A stretch of 64,000 bases of DNA, taken from Rhodobacterales bacterium. Lineage in GTDB: Bacteria > Pseudomonadota > Alphaproteobacteria > Rhodobacterales > Rhodobacteraceae. The DNA lies in the NCBI GenBank assembly GCA_026400355.1, contig JAPLPE010000016.1:1-64000 (forward strand), read 5' to 3'. The notes under the pieces were generated by a model. The model was not told where the DNA came from. It saw only the letters and a list, made by a program, of their open reading frames with translations, and made no database searches. The first letter of the stretch is position 1. Every line of letters starts with the position of its first letter. This document shows positions 37,999-47,238 of this stretch, in pieces. A program made the translations under genes and the position numbers.

Positions 37999-39012
37999 AT
38001 GATCCCGGTCGATCCCCGTTACCTGCCACCATCGGCCATGGAAGTACCACGCTTCGCCGGTATCGCGACGACGATGCGCCTGCCCTTGCGCAATGTCGCT
38101 GATCCGCAAGGGGCGGAGATCGGGATCCTGGGTGTTCCGTGGGATGGCGGGACAACGAACCGGCCCGGTGCCCGACACGGACCGCGCGCCTTGCGCGACC
38201 TTTCCACGATGATCCGCATGGTCAATCAGGCCACCCGCGCCGCCCCGTTCCACACCGCGCGCATCGCGGATTTTGGTGATGCGACGGTCAACCTGACGGA
38301 TGTCGGCCAGACGATGACACTCGTCGAAGACCAGTTCTCGGCCCTGCGCACAGCCGGCGTGACCCCGCTGATGATGGGAGGTGACCACCTGCTCAGCCTG
38401 CCCGCGTTGCGTGCCATGGCCAAGGATGGCGCGCTGGGCTTTGTCCATTTCGACGCGCATACGGACCTGTTCGACAGCTATTTTGGCGGTATGCGCCTTA
38501 CACATGGCACTCCATTCCGCCGTGCTGTCGAAGAGGGTCTGATCGACCCGCAGCGCATGATCCAGATCGGCATCCGGGGAACGACGGCAGACGGGAGCGA
38601 CCGCGCCTTCGCCGCCGCGCAGGGCATCCGCATCATCACGATCGAAGAGTTCCGCCAGCGCAGCCTTGCAGACGTCATGGCAGAGGTGCGGACCCGCGTC
38701 GGCAGTCGGCCGACTTATCTGTCGTTCGACATTGACGGTATCGACCCCGCCTTTGCCCCCGGCACGGGAACACCGGAAATCGGCGGCTTCACCCCTTTTG
38801 AGGCGCAGTGCATGATCCGCGCTCTGGACGGGCTCGACATCGTCGCAGCCGACCTTGTCGAGGTTGCACCACCCTTCGACGCGACCGGCATGACGGCGTG
38901 GATCGGCGTCTCGATCATGTTCGAGATCCTGTGCGTCACCGCCAACGCGGTCGCCCGCAGGGCGGGACGCAAGCCGGTCATCTGCGAAGATATCCCCGAT
39001 CCGGGGGTTTAG
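37999..39012 (+). CDS. Ureohydrolase of the agmatinase/arginase family
   Basis: This 337-residue manganese enzyme shows all metal-binding motifs: GGDH (127-130), FDAHTDLFD (151-159) and SFDIDGIDPAFAPGTGTPE (242-260). It starts ATG with AGGAG 8 nt upstream. Family members hydrolyse guanidino compounds (agmatine, guanidinobutyrate, guanidinopropionate, arginine, guanidine) to urea plus an amine; the exact substrate cannot be read from these motifs. It is convergent with a complete polyamine-type ABC transporter just downstream, which suggests import and breakdown of a guanidino compound. Confidence 0.92.
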   Translation: MIPVDPRYLPPSAMEVPRFAGIATTMRLPLRNVADPQGAEIGILGVPWDGGTTNRPGARHGPRALRDLSTMIRMVNQATRAAPFHTARIADFGDATVNLTDVGQTMTLVEDQFSALRTAGVTPLMMGGDHLLSLPALRAMAKDGALGFVHFDAHTDLFDSYFGGMRLTHGTPFRRAVEEGLIDPQRMIQIGIRGTTADGSDRAFAAAQGIRIITIEEFRQRSLADVMAEVRTRVGSRPTYLSFDIDGIDPAFAPGTGTPEIGGFTPFEAQCMIRALDGLDIVAADLVEVAPPFDATGMTAWIGVSIMFEILCVTANAVARRAGRKPVICEDIPDPGV

Positions 39013-39066: not shown

Positions 39067-39906
39067 TCAGTCTTGAGCCCGTTCCAGCGCCGCCAGACGC
39101 CGTTCCTTGCGGCGCCGCGCCACTTCGTACCAGATGGCTGCAATCAGGGTCGCAATGATCATCAGCAGGGCAAGGGCATTGATCGTCGGCGTGATCCCAG
39201 ACCGGACCTTGGAAAACACATAAACGGTCAGCGTGTTCTGGGTGCCCCGGGTGAACAGCGTGGTGTTGAAGTTCTCGATGGACTGGAAGAAAGCAATAGC
39301 CGCCCCGGCCGCGATGGCCGGGTAAAGATGCGGCAACAGGATGCGGCGCAGAACCTGACTGTTCGAAGCCCCAAGATCCATCGCCGCCTCTTCAAGGCCT
39401 GGGTCAAAGCTTTGCAGGCGGGCCAAGACCAGAAGCATGACGAAGGACGCGATAAAGCTTACCTGCCCCAGAACTGACAGGTGCAGACCGGGATTGAAGA
39501 GAATGAAGTCCGACCCAGTCACATTCCCCATCGAGTTCCAGAACAGCAGGGTCGAGATCCCGATGACAACCCCGGGCATCAGGATCGGTGCGACCATGAC
39601 TCCGTAAAGGAAGCCACGCACTTTGCCCGCAATGGAGTTGATCAGGATCGCCGCCGCGGTTCCGATCGGGACCGCAATAACGACCACGGCCACGGCAACC
39701 CAGAGTGTGTTGGCGAAGGATACCCAGAGGGTCGTGTCGGCAAACAGTTCCTGAAACCAGCGCCAGGTAAAGCCCTTCCATGGGTAAACCGATGGCAGAC
39801 GGTTATCGTTGAACGCGGCACCCGCCATGATGATCAGCGGCACAAACATGTAGATCAGGAAAGCGGCCATATAGAGATGGCCCAGCAAGTGTCTGGATCG
39901 TGTCAT
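39067..39906 (-). CDS. ABC transporter permease, PotC type
   Basis: This 279-residue inner-membrane permease has an N-terminal helix LYMAAFLIYMFVPLIIMAGA, a periplasmic loop with FTWRWFQELFADTTLW, further helices VAVAVVVIAVPIGTAAAILI and FIASFVMLLVLARL, and the EAA loop EEAAMDLGASNSQVLRRILL. It is the last gene of the minus-strand transporter operon (binding protein, ATPase, PotB-like, PotC-like). GGGAGG precedes the start. Confidence 0.9.
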   Translation of the reverse strand: MTRSRHLLGHLYMAAFLIYMFVPLIIMAGAAFNDNRLPSVYPWKGFTWRWFQELFADTTLWVSFANTLWVAVAVVVIAVPIGTAAAILINSIAGKVRGFLYGVMVAPILMPGVVIGISTLLFWNSMGNVTGSDFILFNPGLHLSVLGQVSFIASFVMLLVLARLQSFDPGLEEAAMDLGASNSQVLRRILLPHLYPAIAAGAAIAFFQSIENFNTTLFTRGTQNTLTVYVFSKVRSGITPTINALALLMIIATLIAAIWYEVARRRKERRLAALERAQD

Positions 39907-39916
39907 GGCAGCCTCC

Positions 39917-40852
39917 CTACTTTGCGATCTCGTTCAGCTTTACCCTGAACAGCCACATAACGACCATCACGACAACTGAACACAAGAGGATGTAGAGGAA
40001 CGAATAGGCCGCGCCTGTGTTCCAGTCCTGACTCTCGAGCATCCACTGTCGGATCGTTTCGGTAAACCAGTTCGACGAGGTGGAGGGCAGCACCGTCGGC
40101 ACCAGCAGAGAACCAGCCGACAGCATGAAGACCATCACGCATCCCGAAGCGATCCCCGGCCGCGAATGGGGCAGGACAACCCGCCAGTGAATCTGCCACC
40201 ACCGCGCGCCAAGGTCTTCGGCCGCCTCGATCTGATTGCGGTCCAGCGACTGGATCGCACCATAGATCGGGAACAGCATGAACAGCACATAGGTATAGGT
40301 CAGCCCGATCATGATGCCGTCATAGGGCGTCATGACGCCATTCTGCCAGCGCACCGGTGCCTCAAGCACGCCAAGGCCCACAAGCACGGCATTAAGCGGT
40401 CCGTTGAACGTCAGGATGATGTACCAGGCAAAGGCGCGCAGGGCCTCAGAGACCCACAGCGGGATCGACAGAAGCAGGATCAGCGTCGGCAGCGACTTTG
40501 GGTTCACCACTTTCGCAAGATAATAGGCCAGCGGATAACTCAGGAGGAAACAGACGATCGTGACCACGCCGGAATAAGTGACAGTCGCCAGAAACGTCTT
40601 GAGGTGGACGGGGATCTGCACGTCGATCCCAAAGTAACTTGCCGGTACCGCATTGTTGAGGAACTTCGCATAGTTGTTCAGCGAATAGACATCCCTTGGC
40701 CCGCCGATCTCGGTCACGGGCAGATACGGGCGGAAAGAGGCTTCGAACAGCGTGATGTTCGGCAGGATCACCAGCATGAGCAGCCAGAAGGCTGTCAGCA
40801 GCACAAAGATCAGTGTCAGACCGGGGCCATAGCGGCGAAGAAGCTCGCTCAT
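39917..40852 (-). CDS. ABC transporter permease, PotB type
   Basis: This 311-residue permease starts at MSELLRRYGPGLTL, four bases after the ATPase stop; an in-frame ATG further upstream would lie inside the ATPase gene. Helices include LIFVLLTAFWLLMLVILPNI and VTYSGVVTIVCFLLSYPLAY. The EAA loop is EAAEDLGARWWQIHWRVVLP. It pairs with the PotC-like permease. Confidence 0.9.
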   Translation of the reverse strand: MSELLRRYGPGLTLIFVLLTAFWLLMLVILPNITLFEASFRPYLPVTEIGGPRDVYSLNNYAKFLNNAVPASYFGIDVQIPVHLKTFLATVTYSGVVTIVCFLLSYPLAYYLAKVVNPKSLPTLILLLSIPLWVSEALRAFAWYIILTFNGPLNAVLVGLGVLEAPVRWQNGVMTPYDGIMIGLTYTYVLFMLFPIYGAIQSLDRNQIEAAEDLGARWWQIHWRVVLPHSRPGIASGCVMVFMLSAGSLLVPTVLPSTSSNWFTETIRQWMLESQDWNTGAAYSFLYILLCSVVVMVVMWLFRVKLNEIAK

Positions 40853-40856
40853 CGCC

Positions 40857-41939
40857 TCACGCCCTCGTCTCGTCCGGCAAAAGTGCGGCAGACTCGGCGG
40901 CAAAGGTGGCGTGCAGTGTTGCCCCGACGGCCGGCACAGTCACCGCACCGTCATTGCGGATTTCGGCCGCGACGTTTGCGCCACTGTCGGAAATGGCATG
41001 GACCGAGATGAAGTTACCCTCGAATGACACTTCCGTCACCCGGACGGGCAGCGAGTTTTCAGCGCCCGGGTCGGGCGACAGGATCGTGTACTCTGGCCGG
41101 ACATAAAGCTTGAGCGTTTCATCCCGCGCAACGCCGTCTGCAAGACGCGCACGGAACTGACCATGTGGCGTGCTGAACGCCGCGATCCCGTTCGAAACCG
41201 CGCCCAGCTTGCCGGCAAAGATGTTGTTCTCTCCGACAAAGGACGCAACAAACCCGTTCGTCGGTTGGTTGTAGATCTCGCGCGGGTCGGCCACCTGCTG
41301 CAACTGACCATGGCTCATCACGCCCACACGGTCTGACATGGCCAAAGCCTCGCCCTGATCGTGGGTGATATAGATGAATGTCACGCCGGTCCGCTTCTGG
41401 ATCGAACGAAGTTCGGCGCGCATGTGCTGCCGCAGTTTGAGGTCTAGCGCAGACAGCGGCTCGTCCAGCAGCATGACCGCAGGCTCGACCGCAAGGGCCC
41501 GCGCAATCGCCACCCGCTGTTTCTGCCCGCCCGACAATTGGCTGACCAGCTTGTCACCCGCACCCGGAAGATCAACCAGCTTAAGAAGTTCATCGGCCCT
41601 CGTACGGCATTTCGACTTGTCTACGCCGCGCACTGACAGGCCAAAGGCGATATTGTCCGCCACCGACATCAGCGGAAACAGTGCGAGGTTCTGAAAGATC
41701 AGGGCAGTCGGGCGTTGGTTCGGCCGCGTCCCCTTCATGTCCTTCCCGCCAATGCGGATCACGCCGCCCGTCGGATCGGTAAAGCCCGAAATCATGCGCA
41801 GAATCGTGGTCTTGCCACAGCCGGACGGGCCCAGAAAGGAAAAGAACTCGCCTTCCTTGACCGTCACATTCACCCGATCAACGGCCCGGAAGCTTCCGAA
41901 ATCGCAGATGACGTCTTCTAGTTCGATACCGGCGCCCAT
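40857..41939 (-). CDS. ABC transporter ATPase, PotA type
   Basis: This protein of about 360 residues starts at MGAGIELEDVICDFG; the frame is open further upstream but without family resemblance. Walker A is FLGPSGCGKTTILRMI, the signature QLSGGQKQRVAIARAL, Walker B VMLLDEPLSALDLKLR and the H-loop YITHDQGEALAMSDRV. A C-terminal TOBE domain (residues about 280-350) follows. It energises the two adjacent permeases and is typical of spermidine/putrescine-type importers. Confidence 0.93.
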   Translation of the reverse strand: MGAGIELEDVICDFGSFRAVDRVNVTVKEGEFFSFLGPSGCGKTTILRMISGFTDPTGGVIRIGGKDMKGTRPNQRPTALIFQNLALFPLMSVADNIAFGLSVRGVDKSKCRTRADELLKLVDLPGAGDKLVSQLSGGQKQRVAIARALAVEPAVMLLDEPLSALDLKLRQHMRAELRSIQKRTGVTFIYITHDQGEALAMSDRVGVMSHGQLQQVADPREIYNQPTNGFVASFVGENNIFAGKLGAVSNGIAAFSTPHGQFRARLADGVARDETLKLYVRPEYTILSPDPGAENSLPVRVTEVSFEGNFISVHAISDSGANVAAEIRNDGAVTVPAVGATLHATFAAESAALLPDETRA

Positions 41940-42090
41940 TGTCCGATAATCCCTTGTGCCCTGTTGGTCCGTTGCGCATTCCGGTCCCTGAACGGCCCCC
42001 CAAGCCGTGTCGGCGGATCTGGTGTCCCGTCTGTCCCGTGACCCGCAGTCAAACGTGCGGTGAAGGGAACAGACGTCCGAATGCAATAAA

Positions 42091-42121
42091 CTGCCCCCCG
42101 AAGTCGCGCTCCGGGAGGCAG
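42091..42121 (-). terminator. Attenuator-like hairpin between binding-protein and ATPase genes
   Basis: On the minus strand CTGCCTCCCGG pairs with CGGGGGGCAG (one mismatch) and is followed by TTTATT, about 22 bp after the binding-protein stop. Such hairpins usually raise the ratio of binding protein to membrane components by partial termination or 3' protection. Confidence 0.6.
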
Positions 42122-42142
42122 ATCACTTGGTGTGACGAATGA

Positions 42143-43270
42143 TCAGGCTGCCTTGTACTTGTCGGCATACTCGCCGCGCTTGGCGATGAACTCTGCCGAC
42201 TGCTCGGGCCACCACCACAGCTTGGCAAGCGCCGCATCGTCAAAGGTCGCGGCATAATATGCCGAGACTTCGGGATCCAGCAAGTCGCCTGCGCCCTTGC
42301 CGACCGGGTTCGACGAGAAGGCCGCAGCCCAGCCCGCAGCGCCTTCGGGGGTCGAAACGTACTTGGCGAATTCGTGCGCTTCGGCGGTGTTCACGGCGTT
42401 CTTCATCAGCACAAAACCCTGATGCCAGGCAAAGGCGCCTTCAGCCGGTGCGATGTAGCGGAAGCCGTCGTTGCGCAGGTTGAAGCCGGTCGAATCCCAG
42501 CACAGACCGATCGTCGCGCCGTTGGCGGTAAAGCCGGCGTTGGCTTCGTTCTCGCCCGACCACCACTGAACAACGTTGCCTTTGGCAGCGATCGCCTCAG
42601 CCAGCGCAATGTCCCAAAGCTCGGTCATGGCAGCCATGTCGGAATAGCCGTCGATCCAGGGGCGCGGCAGCTTGCCCTGTGCGTCGAGCCAGCGGCCCAT
42701 CGCGGCAAGCGTCGAATGGGGGCGCAGAACGGCCTGATTGGCCGGGTTGAACAGGTCGCCCAGCGACCCGGGTTCCGATATCGTTGCGGTTTCGGTCGCA
42801 ACGACCAGCGCTTCGGTACCCCAGTTCGAGGGCACATAGAACAGCGCACCCGAGGCATCACGCGAACGTTCGCCCGCCGACCCGTCAGCAAGGCCGGGCA
42901 GGTAGTTGTCAAGCGCGAGCTTGGTCGGATCCCAGGCCTGCAGAAGCCCGTTCGAGTTCCAGCCACCCCAACGGTCGATCGTCGGTTCGATCACGTCGAT
43001 GCCACCAGCTTCGACCGCAACCTTGGCCGCCGCGAACATGGCATCCTGATCGGGAAGCTCGGTGAAGTTCACGGCAATACCGGTGGCCGCAGTAAACGCC
43101 GGGAACACTTCGGCGGCAAGGCGGGGATAACCGGCCCAGCCTGTGAAGTTAAGCTGCCCTGCCTGGGCAAGTACGGCACGCGGAATGATTGCAGGCGCGG
43201 CAAGTGCGCCAAGGGTTACAGCCGAACCCTTGAGCACGGAGCGTCTGTTGATGTTGGACGTTCTTGTCAT
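42143..43270 (-). CDS. ABC transporter periplasmic binding protein, PotD-like, Tat-exported
   Basis: This 375-residue protein begins with a twin-arginine signal peptide (NINRRSVLKGSAVTLGAL, cleaved near AVLAQ). The mature domain resembles PotD-type polyamine binding proteins: LNFTGWAGYPRLAAEVFPAF, DVIEPTIDRWGGWNSNG, AMTELWDIALAEAIA and AFAWHQGFVLMKNAVNTAEA. It is first in the operon and lies beside a ureohydrolase gene, which fits a guanidino- or polyamine-type ligand. Export of a folded binding protein by Tat is less usual than by Sec. Confidence 0.88.
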   Translation of the reverse strand: MTRTSNINRRSVLKGSAVTLGALAAPAIIPRAVLAQAGQLNFTGWAGYPRLAAEVFPAFTAATGIAVNFTELPDQDAMFAAAKVAVEAGGIDVIEPTIDRWGGWNSNGLLQAWDPTKLALDNYLPGLADGSAGERSRDASGALFYVPSNWGTEALVVATETATISEPGSLGDLFNPANQAVLRPHSTLAAMGRWLDAQGKLPRPWIDGYSDMAAMTELWDIALAEAIAAKGNVVQWWSGENEANAGFTANGATIGLCWDSTGFNLRNDGFRYIAPAEGAFAWHQGFVLMKNAVNTAEAHEFAKYVSTPEGAAGWAAAFSSNPVGKGAGDLLDPEVSAYYAATFDDAALAKLWWWPEQSAEFIAKRGEYADKYKAA

Positions 43271-43602: not shown

Positions 43603-44691
43603 TTACTGCAGACCCGCGACCATCGCTTCCACCGTGGCAGCCGTCGGCATCGGCACGACCTGATTGATGGTTTCGGGGAGCGTTGCGTTCATCATCGACT
43701 CATGGTCGTTGACAACTCCGGCGAGCCCGGTCCGGAAGCCATGGTCTGACCACGCGAGGCCTTGCAACTCGGGGTCCTGCAGTGCCTCTGCCAGCTTGGT
43801 ACAGGCCGGCGTCAGGCTGATCAGAGGATGCGAGGCGAAGACTGTGGGTTCCGGGTAGATCATGGTAATCCGATCACGGATCATCGGCGCAGAGGCGGCG
43901 TTTGCGTTGATGAATTCGACCATCTGGTTCTCATAACCCACAATGATCGGTCGGGCCCCCATGCCCTGCTTGAGGAAGTTCTCGAAGATGTCGCCAGATG
44001 AAGACTCCATGTACCCCATGCTGGCAAAGGTGTTCTGGAGTTGAGGGAGGAGCACGGACAGATCCGCGACGACAGGAAGGCTGCCTTCGTTCATTGCGGT
44101 TGCCAACAGGCCTGCCCAGATGAGGCCCGAGTTTGATTTCACCGGATCAGTCGAAAAGATGCCGAAGCTTCCATAGAGGTTGATACCAATGTCCTCGCGC
44201 CACTTTGCCCCTTCCTGTATCTTTGCGGCGACCGCCTGAACATCTGCATAAAGGAAACCGTCGTCAGCCCGGCGCACGAGGCCTGCCGATACCATCGCAT
44301 CCGCGACCTCGTTCCAGGCATAGAAGACGATCGGGGAGGTGAAGATCGTGTCGACTGAGAGCGGCCTGAGGCCTCTGGCGCGGGCAAGATCAACTGCAAC
44401 GGTGCTTGACGGCCAGAGGCAATCCTTACCCGTCACGTCCAGCGTTTTGGCCATTTCGACCGAGCCGGCCCGAATGGCGTCCAGCGTGATGTTGTACCGG
44501 TCCCGCAGTATGTCCGTGATCGCCGGATCATCCAGCAGAGCCGACTTTTCCCCTCCGTAATAGAGGGTCACCACCTGTGCTTCGGTCGGCACAACCGACC
44601 GGCGCAGATTGCCGAGGTCGAGCGTCGAGACGGCGACTGCGATCAGGGCGACCACTGCGAGGGCAACAAGCCCGATCAGGCTGCGTTTCAT
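43603..44691 (-). CDS. Membrane-anchored binding-protein-like protein, third gene of the VWA operon
   Basis: This 362-residue protein has an N-terminal hydrophobic anchor (IGLVALAVVALIAVAVSTLD, residues about 5-25) and then a periplasmic-binding-protein-like body: VVTLYYGGEKSALLDDPAI, IFTSPIVFYAWNEVADAM, LYGSFGIFSTDPVKSNSGLI, PIIVGYENQMVEFINANA and TMIYPEPTVFASHPLISL. The block STDPVKSNSG parallels SASQSNSGA in the VWA fusion two genes upstream, so the two are probably related binding domains. A lone cysteine lies in GKDCLWPSS and another in TPACTKLAE. It follows the XpaC-like gene by 12 bp. No ABC permease or ATPase accompanies it, so a sensing or scaffolding role is more likely than transport. 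Confidence 0.7.
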   Translation of the reverse strand: MKRSLIGLVALAVVALIAVAVSTLDLGNLRRSVVPTEAQVVTLYYGGEKSALLDDPAITDILRDRYNITLDAIRAGSVEMAKTLDVTGKDCLWPSSTVAVDLARARGLRPLSVDTIFTSPIVFYAWNEVADAMVSAGLVRRADDGFLYADVQAVAAKIQEGAKWREDIGINLYGSFGIFSTDPVKSNSGLIWAGLLATAMNEGSLPVVADLSVLLPQLQNTFASMGYMESSSGDIFENFLKQGMGARPIIVGYENQMVEFINANAASAPMIRDRITMIYPEPTVFASHPLISLTPACTKLAEALQDPELQGLAWSDHGFRTGLAGVVNDHESMMNATLPETINQVVPMPTAATVEAMVAGLQ

Positions 44692-44703
44692 TCCTATTGC
44701 CCC

Positions 44704-45300
44704 TTATCCACGCGAGATCTGAAAGGACAGGGCCGCAATTTCCTGTCCGAGTTCGTCAAGGTCATTGTCAAGGTAGGCTTTGTTGATCCGGTCAAGCGCA
44801 GGACCACAGACCGTGAGTCGCTCCCTCAGCTTGGACACGCGCGGGTCATCAGTCGTTGCGCCTTTCCGGGTCAGGTTCACATAGGATTCAAACGAGTCGA
44901 CCATCGGGTCCAGATAGGATGTGATGAAGCGGCGGCCAAGCCGGTAGTCCACCGGATCCTCTGCGATGTTCGAACGAAGAACGTCGAGCGACGTTGCCAG
45001 ATGTGCGACCATGTCGCGGTCTTGATCGTTTGCCAGTGTGGTCAGACGTGTCATGCGATTGTGCGCGGCATCCAGCTTGGCCTTTGCCTGCGCGATCTCG
45101 GCAAGGCTGACACGTTCGGCCACGATGATTTCTTCATCGGGCGGACGCCGGACGACGATCAGAAAGACTGCACCCCAAGCCGCAACGGCCAGTGCAAAGG
45201 CCAACCAGGCGACCAGCGAAAGACCGAAGAAGCACAAAAGGAACGTTGCCGCGCCAACGGCAAAGGCAAGGAGATTGCGCGGTCCGTCACGAAACTCCAT
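44704..45300 (-). CDS. XpaC-like membrane protein
   Basis: This 198-residue protein has two hydrophobic helices near the N-terminus (LLAFAVGAATFLLCFFGLSL, AWLAFALAVAAWGAVFLIVV), then an extended helical domain (SLAEIAQAKAKLDAAHNRMT, FITSYLDPMVDSFESYVNLT) and a C-terminal LDRINKAYLDNDLDELGQEI. This resembles the XpaC family (5-bromo-4-chloroindolyl phosphate hydrolysis protein), which normally accompanies TelA-type toxic-anion-resistance proteins; no telA gene is visible. Its ATG overlaps the stop of the VWA gene (TGATG), so the two are tightly coupled. Confidence 0.7.
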   Translation of the reverse strand: MEFRDGPRNLLAFAVGAATFLLCFFGLSLVAWLAFALAVAAWGAVFLIVVRRPPDEEIIVAERVSLAEIAQAKAKLDAAHNRMTRLTTLANDQDRDMVAHLATSLDVLRSNIAEDPVDYRLGRRFITSYLDPMVDSFESYVNLTRKGATTDDPRVSKLRERLTVCGPALDRINKAYLDNDLDELGQEIAALSFQISRG

Positions 45301-46937
45301 CAGTTATAACCCCTTACATCGCGGAGTGCCGTGGAAAGCCCCTTGTCGACGCCAAAGACCTTGCCCACTGTCGCTGCCGCGAGTGCGTCGAGTTGCTCGA
45401 GGTCGGACTCGCCGAAAGCGATCGCGTGAACCGGAAAGCCAAGTCCGCTTGCCGCCATCGCCGAGAAGACCCGATCGCGGTAACCCGTGTCGGAAGCACC
45501 GTCGGTAAGAACGACAACTGCCGGAAGATAGTCGACGAGAGTCCCCTTGGAGGCAAAGCCCTGCATCTGCTTCAGCGCGACGCCAAGCGCAGAATACATG
45601 TCCGTCCCGCCATCCGCCTGCAGGGCCATGACCTGATCCAGCAGTCTGCTCAGGACGGCGGGATCGTTACCTTCTGCCATCATCGGCGTACCCGGAGCGG
45701 AGGAAAACGGGATGATGACGGTGATGTCGTTCTCCGAAGGCTGCAACAATGACGTCGCAGCTTCGGCCGGATCAAGGATCATCCGCAGCGCCTCTTTCGC
45801 CTCGTTCATCGGAGCACCCTCCATGGAGCCGGATGTGTCGATCAGCCAGATCGTCAGAGAGGGTTTCCGCAGTTCGGTCTGATAGAGCCGCAGCGCCTCG
45901 GCCACGACTTCTGGCGTCGGGGTCGGAACGGACGCCACGGTCAGGGCAGGTATGACGCCCCAGTCCGGGTTCCAGACGGCCGGATCACCGCCCGTCTGGT
46001 CAAGACCGATCAGCCCGGTGCGACGCCCCAAGTCCGAGAGTTGTGATTGGGTGTCCGACGAGAGCAGAAACTTCTGGAGGTCAAGGAAATCCTTTTCCTT
46101 CTCGGGATCACCCTTGTCGATGAAGGCAAGCGGAGAATCTGCGACCATCAGTCCGTTTGCCGGATAGACGACATACAACGGGTTCTGCCCGGCCGGAACA
46201 AGCGCGCGATTGGCCTCGATGACGAGAGCTTCATAGTTGAACATCGCATCATAGGCTTCCGGATTTGCAAGAAAACTCTCCTTGAGCCAGTCTGAAGACC
46301 CCGATGATCTGTCCACCCGCCCAAGGATGTCGCGCACGTTCTCTTGAACGGCCGGATCTTTCAGATTGTCCAGCGTCAACACATCCGGGTTCCCGGCGAA
46401 GGCGTAAAGAAACCCAAGATAGGCCGAAGCGCCGGAATTCGACTGGCTGGCCGAGGTCATCGCAAGGCGGAAATCGCCCGCAGCGGCAGCTGCCGCGATG
46501 TCCTGAACCGTCACATCTGTTCGCCCGACCCAGCCCAGCCTTTGCGCCGTTTCAGATCGGATTCCGAGGACGACCGGGGTTCGCATGATGGAGGCGGCGT
46601 GTCGCGTCACCTTTTGCGTGTCACCAAGGCCGATCCAAAGAGAATGCGCTGGCCAAACTGCATCGAACGGAATCGCCGTTCCGTCATTCAAGGCGCGCGA
46701 GATGTCGACCGAACCCTGAAAGGTCATCCGGACATCAACACCATTCTCCTGCCCCCAGGCCTGGATCAGCGGAACGAGAGGCCTGTTCTCTGAACCGGAA
46801 AGTATGGTCAGGGTACGGCCAGATGCCGTTTGGTCCACATTGCCCCCGCCAAGGTTGAAACCGGCAAAGAGCGCCAAGACCAGCAAGAACCCGGCTCCGA
46901 TGAGCCACCCGGAAAGACCACCTGATTTCATCTTCAT
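45300..46937 (-). CDS. Fusion of substrate-binding domain and von Willebrand factor A domain, membrane-anchored
   Basis: This 545-residue protein starts at MKMKSGG, with AAAGGG upstream. It has a transmembrane anchor (about residues 11-29), an extracellular solute-binding domain (about 42-330; LTILSGSENRPLVPLIQAW, FDAVWPAHSLWIGLGD, AMTSASQSNSGASAYLGF, VVYPANGLMVADSPLAFI) and a VWA domain (about 360-545) with a complete MIDAS: DTSGS (367-371), Thr445 in GGTDMYSAL and Asp479 in LTDGASD. VWA domains mediate metal-dependent protein contacts; here the contact would be governed by a ligand-binding module on the same chain, outside the cytoplasmic membrane. It is the first gene of a three-gene operon. 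No transporter partner is adjacent. Confidence 0.85.
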   Translation of the reverse strand: MKMKSGGLSGWLIGAGFLLVLALFAGFNLGGGNVDQTASGRTLTILSGSENRPLVPLIQAWGQENGVDVRMTFQGSVDISRALNDGTAIPFDAVWPAHSLWIGLGDTQKVTRHAASIMRTPVVLGIRSETAQRLGWVGRTDVTVQDIAAAAAAGDFRLAMTSASQSNSGASAYLGFLYAFAGNPDVLTLDNLKDPAVQENVRDILGRVDRSSGSSDWLKESFLANPEAYDAMFNYEALVIEANRALVPAGQNPLYVVYPANGLMVADSPLAFIDKGDPEKEKDFLDLQKFLLSSDTQSQLSDLGRRTGLIGLDQTGGDPAVWNPDWGVIPALTVASVPTPTPEVVAEALRLYQTELRKPSLTIWLIDTSGSMEGAPMNEAKEALRMILDPAEAATSLLQPSENDITVIIPFSSAPGTPMMAEGNDPAVLSRLLDQVMALQADGGTDMYSALGVALKQMQGFASKGTLVDYLPAVVVLTDGASDTGYRDRVFSAMAASGLGFPVHAIAFGESDLEQLDALAAATVGKVFGVDKGLSTALRDVRGYN

Positions 46938-47238
46938 GACAGGCCCTTTCGAAAAACGATCTGTATCCGGCAACATGATGTCATCGAAACACTCCTGATC
47001 ACTTCGCGGTTTTCCTTCTGAGAAGCAAACAGAAGCGTATTTGGTCCTCTCCGACCGCGTTTGCAATCGGTACCAGCGAACAAGCGCAAAACAGGCGCCT
47101 TTCCGGCCGGAACTGATTTCCGAAAGCCATTGCAGGGATTACCTTCTGACGAGAGTGAAGTCGACATCGTTCGTCGAGAGGTTAAGGCCCCGGATTGCAG
47201 ATGTCGGGGCGCAAAATCTTCCGGAATGCGCAGGATGG

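Follow-up and report, generated by a model that had tools for sequence, protein, structure and literature searches.

The A-B-C operon

The window, a stretch of 64,000 nucleotides from a Rhodobacterales bacterium, carries on its minus strand three genes, here termed A, B and C, whose reading frames are all open at the coordinates below. The tight coupling described in an earlier note, made from the sequence alone, was found in the sequence as a TGATG overlap between A and B followed by a 12-bp gap between B and C.

45300..46937, minus strand: gene A, 545 amino acids; anchor, SBP_bac_11 and VWA domains
44704..45300, minus strand: gene B, 198 amino acids; XpaC family (PF10112)
43603..44691, minus strand: gene C, 362 amino acids; anchor and predicted type II binding-protein fold
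45300..45300, minus strand: 1-nt overlap of the A stop and B start, TGATG (sequence ...AACTGATGGAG...)
44692..44703, minus strand: 12-bp spacer between B and C

An alternative longer start of gene A, TTG at 47066, is present, but ATG at 46937 matches the homologues better. Promoter and terminator scans detected no sites, of which few would be expected, Rfam and phage-collection searches returned nothing useful, and the PADLOC models (2023 library) gave no match to A, B, C or TelA. No permease or ATPase gene of an ABC importer was found in the operon, so that the absence reported in the earlier note holds for the operon itself and not for its vicinity. An ABC set of the spermidine/putrescine type, composed of a binding protein (42143-43270), an ATPase and two permeases, lies on the same strand at 39067-43270, beginning 332 bp downstream of the operon, and is adjoined by an agmatinase/arginase-like gene on the plus strand (37999-39012).

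Protein A combines an N-terminal transmembrane anchor (about residues 5-32), a type II binding-protein domain (about residues 39-353) and a VWA domain with a complete MIDAS (about residues 358-545), an architecture already recognised in the earlier note and on which Pfam matches (SBP_bac_11, 61 bits; VWA_3/VWA, 42/39 bits) and alignments agree. In the AlphaFold model (pLDDT 87, 12-sequence alignment), the binding domain shows the two-lobe fold with a Z of 26.5 to 1sbp and 5um2 (Sbp), and the VWA part matches the solved VWA structure 4fx5 with a Z of 21.9. The MIDAS residues D367-x-S369-x-S371, T445 and D479, which follow the DxSxS...T...D pattern, are all present in A and invariant across 26 homologues. 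Additionally, A ends in (K/R)(G/A)Y(N/Q)-COOH (encoded within 45300-45344), a motif that forms the extreme C-terminus in nearly all A homologues, even at about 28% identity. In several distant A proteins (L008-L012, L014), the anchor is replaced by a lipobox-like N-terminus, which would likewise place these proteins outside.

Protein B scored 50.9 bits against the XpaC profile PF10112, above the curated cut-off of 29.8, bearing out its description as XpaC-like, and the B proteins of L004, L009, L010, L011 and L014 likewise exceed this cut-off. Two N-terminal hydrophobic segments are followed by a predicted cytoplasmic helical domain. For the middle gene of Variovorax and Sphaerotilus no XpaC profile match was seen, and it is therefore called B by position; it resembles the B genes of L045, L049 and L050, which are themselves weak XpaC matches.

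Protein C had no significant match in Pfam, where no family covers its binding-protein fold, and a PDB sequence search with C, like one with TelA, found none. The AlphaFold model (pLDDT 82, 12-sequence alignment) predicts with good confidence, as for A, a type II periplasmic binding-protein fold, here behind one N-terminal transmembrane helix, in line with the anchored, binding-protein-like body proposed earlier. The two-lobe fold is apparent from a Z of 24.3 to 6ddn (268 aligned residues, rmsd 3.1), and the structural matches (Foldseek/VIA) include sulfate-, iron- and molybdate-binding proteins. The best structural matches of both the C body and the first domain of A are sulfate-binding proteins (Z 24 and 26.5), a ranking that does not name the ligand because Z is close over many ligand classes. 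Hydropathy indicates a single anchor each in A and C and a pair of hydrophobic segments near the N-terminus of B; by the positive-inside rule, A and C would face outward and the helical domain of B would lie in the cytoplasm.

Matching clefts of A and C

In a comparison of 26-row profiles, C and the first domain of A proved homologous (hhalign 99.6%, E 2.7e-24), and on this sequence basis C is a paralogue of the binding domain of A. The possibility that C is only superficially binding-protein-like was ruled out by this alignment together with the structure matches. Counting a position as conserved when it is kept in at least 24 of the 26 sequences of each family, 18 aligned positions are conserved in both A and C against 5.5 expected, an excess that is optimistic because the alignment itself favours conserved columns; the residue is identical at 17 of them, and the match over the domain as a whole still speaks for the register. 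The common residues, in A numbering, include G48, E50, G75, S166-N167-S168, S214-S215, Y235-E236, Y258-P259, R306 and P340, each with its counterpart in C. The ligand-cleft residues kept in both proteins comprise G-E, GS, SNS, SS, YE and YP, and the SNSG block that the earlier note had seen in both is one of these conserved cleft loops, homologous and in register.

Type II oxyanion-binding proteins such as Sbp and ModA hold their ligands at helix N-termini. In the models of both A and C, such N-termini hold more of the conserved residues than expected (p 0.003 and 0.005). Because the same conserved cleft occurs in both proteins, A and C probably share a ligand or bind similar ones. The earlier note proposed that a metal-dependent contact, possibly one joining A and C, is controlled by ligand binding; such a putative contact is possible, and the matching clefts agree no less well with a pair of receptors that share one ligand.

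Co-inheritance of the module and its link to TelA

When 84,980 species genomes were scanned with A, 11 loci emerged, all of which (11/11) carry the middle gene and C in unchanged order, and a search with C in genomes of the window's family and phylum identified 15 regions, all with A and each with B or an ORF in the B position. The window's family was covered by 296 genera, in which C and a high-scoring A (at least 740 bits) co-occur in exactly the same 9 genomes, which ruled out a chance neighbourhood. Pairwise distances of A and C correlate with r = 0.95 in the full set of 26 modules and with r = 0.81 in the window's clade alone; L012 was excluded from the 26 because it is near-identical to L011. 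The three families are thus co-conserved, and of the two outcomes named in advance as refuting the earlier note, a lack of co-conservation and degenerate genes in close relatives, neither was found. That A, B and C form a real, intact unit is well supported.

The module is patchy: roughly 3% of the family's genera carry it, as do 2% of the phylum sample. Nearly all examined loci with a true A also have C and a B-type gene after A, across several classes and phyla, and the cleft and MIDAS residues are retained across the 26 modules. The claim of breadth rests on the named Deinococcus, Nonomuraea, Variovorax and Sphaerotilus records, plasmids or large replicons that carry A, C and a gene in the B position. 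Caution is needed over the taxonomy of the Armatimonadetes and Schekmanbacteria MAGs (L008, L009), each of which is a single bin. The modules and flanks of L011, an alphaproteobacterial MAG, and L012, an 'Anaerolineae' MAG, are near-identical, and one of the two is probably misbinned. A Streptomyces locus (L054) showed a C-like match with no A within 6 kb, and a Miltoncostaea locus (L055) matched A weakly and lacked C. Around the 26 modules, no gene families besides A, B, C and TelA were widely recurrent, and no permease or ATPase recurred either.

Only G002 among the 296 genera has an additional, divergent A-like gene. The orphan A homologue of this genome (L059:7294-10422; G002:C1:237299-238909) has no B, C or telA nearby. 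Its reading frame is open, yet of 47 positions that are invariant elsewhere it retains only 23; GSEN, SNSG, YE and the SS loop have been lost, and the MIDAS is altered at T445 and G370. A proteins within modules keep 85-100%, including some that are nearly as distant from their closest relative. This erosion, a single case, suggests that the cleft and MIDAS of A are coupled to having B and C alongside.

That the TelA protein usually accompanying XpaC is missing, as the earlier note had remarked, is true locally and fails as a property of the system. No telA gene was found in the window's module, and the one TelA of this genome is encoded on another contig, where it adjoins a second, higher-scoring XpaC (C32:86143-87883). 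As to whether telA is normally included, TelA lies inside the cluster in 11 of the 26 modules and is not adjacent in 15, and in the window's clade (11 modules) it is never in the cluster. The order is TelA-A-B-C in one alphaproteobacterial group (L011, L014, L033, L040-L042, L044) and C-TelA-A-B in L045, L047, L048 and L050, and a truncated locus (L056) has TelA after C. Just 2 or 3 changes of the linkage label are needed on the trees. TelA is present somewhere in 23 of 25 module genomes, the search finding it absent from two module-bearing MAGs. The idea that telA is foreign to the system was rejected on the basis of these clusters and genomes. In the window's family TelA is near-universal (133 of 149 genera), so that its co-presence with the module there is uninformative and the module may use TelA in trans.

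Three modules and the orphan A have a flotillin gene no more than about 8 kb away (L007:1205-2968, L031:9082-10761, L047:1-1635, L059:11926-13620); in L007, L031 and L047 this gene adjoins one of the YqiJ/OB-fold type. This proximity, chosen post hoc, is suggestive of an envelope link.

A putative surface sensor and its alternatives

The best explanation of these features, to which we would give an even chance, is an ABC-free surface sensor with twin receptors that feeds the XpaC/TelA envelope-stress apparatus, and the earlier note's overall interpretation is in this respect partly supported. A, B and C would make up the membrane and extracytoplasmic half of this stress-response apparatus, with A and C held outside the inner membrane by their N-terminal anchors. 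The two would probably recognise one small ligand, or two similar ones, most likely anionic and held at helix N-termini in the style of sulfate- and molybdate-binding proteins. Ligand occupancy would alter the engagement of the VWA/MIDAS of A with a partner, which may be C, the membrane segments of B or an envelope component, presumably within a physical complex. B, predicted to form a hairpin of two TM segments followed by a helical domain in the cytoplasm, would relay this state inward to TelA, which would then adjust the envelope. The expected phenotype, a toxic-anion or envelope-stress response, would follow by analogy with known TelA/XpaC biology. In B. subtilis, the sigma-W regulon includes homologues of TelA/XpaC (PMC3498285), and mutation of telA in Listeria has been reported to heighten sensitivity to nisin and tellurite (as cited in PMC12791056).

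An account that we consider rather doubtful is structural reinforcement of the envelope, in which the VWA/MIDAS and binding domains would serve metal- and ligand-dependent adhesion between the anchored proteins or to wall or lipid components, and TelA would act as a submembrane scaffold, with no signalling. In ter systems TelA and a vWA protein are proposed to build a submembrane barrier or structures (PMC7824862), which speaks for this account, as do the link of TelA to cell-wall-acting drugs and the flotillin genes near three modules and the orphan A. However, a purely structural role leaves unexplained why the residues conserved in both A and C are located in the cleft.

It is unlikely that the module instead captures and delivers a solute, with A and C handing it to a separately encoded transporter and B and TelA having another task. 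Both proteins have type II folds nearest to transport proteins and an ABC system lies 332 bp downstream, but that set has a binding protein of its own, no permease or ATPase recurs beside the module across lineages, B has two hydrophobic segments only, and what consistently accompanies the pair is XpaC and, in many cases, TelA. Least probable, and by a wide measure improbable in itself, is that the window's copy is a decaying, functionless leftover that has already lost telA. In favour of this are the end branch of its A, which at 0.76 is longer than any other in the clade, and the unlinked telA, but linked telA is missing throughout the clade, the three frames are open, the MIDAS is full, A retains 47 of 49 otherwise near-invariant positions and C departs at one conserved column.

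The sensor reading can be set against several known systems. The XpaC-TelA pairs (B. subtilis xpaC-yaaN; Listeria lmo1966-1967) resemble the module in that B belongs to the XpaC family and telA is clustered in 11 of 26 modules; as described, however, they lack a binding-protein/VWA fusion and a second binding protein, and the window's telA is unlinked. In the ter/TelA stress and phage-exclusion systems (TerF), TelA is likewise combined with a vWA protein, whereas the VWA domain of the module is predicted to be extracytoplasmic and is fused to a binding protein; in an unsystematic look, no TerB/C/D-type gene was seen in annotated module neighbourhoods. The type II oxyanion-binding proteins Sbp, SubI and ModA share the fold of C and the first domain of A (Z 24-26.5 to Sbp/SubI) and the conserved residues at helix N-termini, but A and C are membrane-anchored, are fused to VWA or paired with XpaC, and are encoded in a cluster without ABC permease or ATPase. 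The NCBI 'Substrate-binding and VWA domain-containing protein' of Variovorax and Streptomyces has the domain order of A. The Variovorax protein is about 29% identical to A, and its locus also carries telA, C and a B-position gene, with C and B there annotated as 'hypothetical protein' and the set unnamed.

Of these elements, the domain combination in A, the XpaC family and TelA had been known before. In literature searches we found neither the A/B/C/TelA set described nor C recognised as a binding protein; an earlier description is possible, for example in the 2012 study by Anantharaman et al., which reportedly dealt with ter-dependent stress systems. More tentatively than the sensor reading itself, and somewhat on the doubtful side, the module may represent a previously undescribed, phylum-spanning receptor class in which two anchored binding proteins that share a pocket, one of them joined to a VWA switch, sense an external anion and signal through XpaC to TelA without a kinase, ABC transporter or sigma factor, with C founding a new family. 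TelA/XpaC proteins have a long-standing association with tolerance to nisin, tellurite and drugs that act on the wall, and the conserved pair of binding proteins, with their intact pockets, offers a direct handle on the signal sensed. If the sensor reading is true, the ligand of A and C, which could be found by binding screens, would identify the signal of the TelA/XpaC system, and C provides a function lead for a family that public annotation labels hypothetical.

Two further loci were observed. A Wadjet (Jet) system (L047:11511-15464) lies about 2.4 kb past the Variovorax module. Finally, a Ca. Thiodictyon plasmid (L051:5893-9924) carries a distant trio of an SBP-VWA protein, a second SBP protein and a hypothetical protein, with no XpaC or TelA nearby, which is perhaps a sister system.
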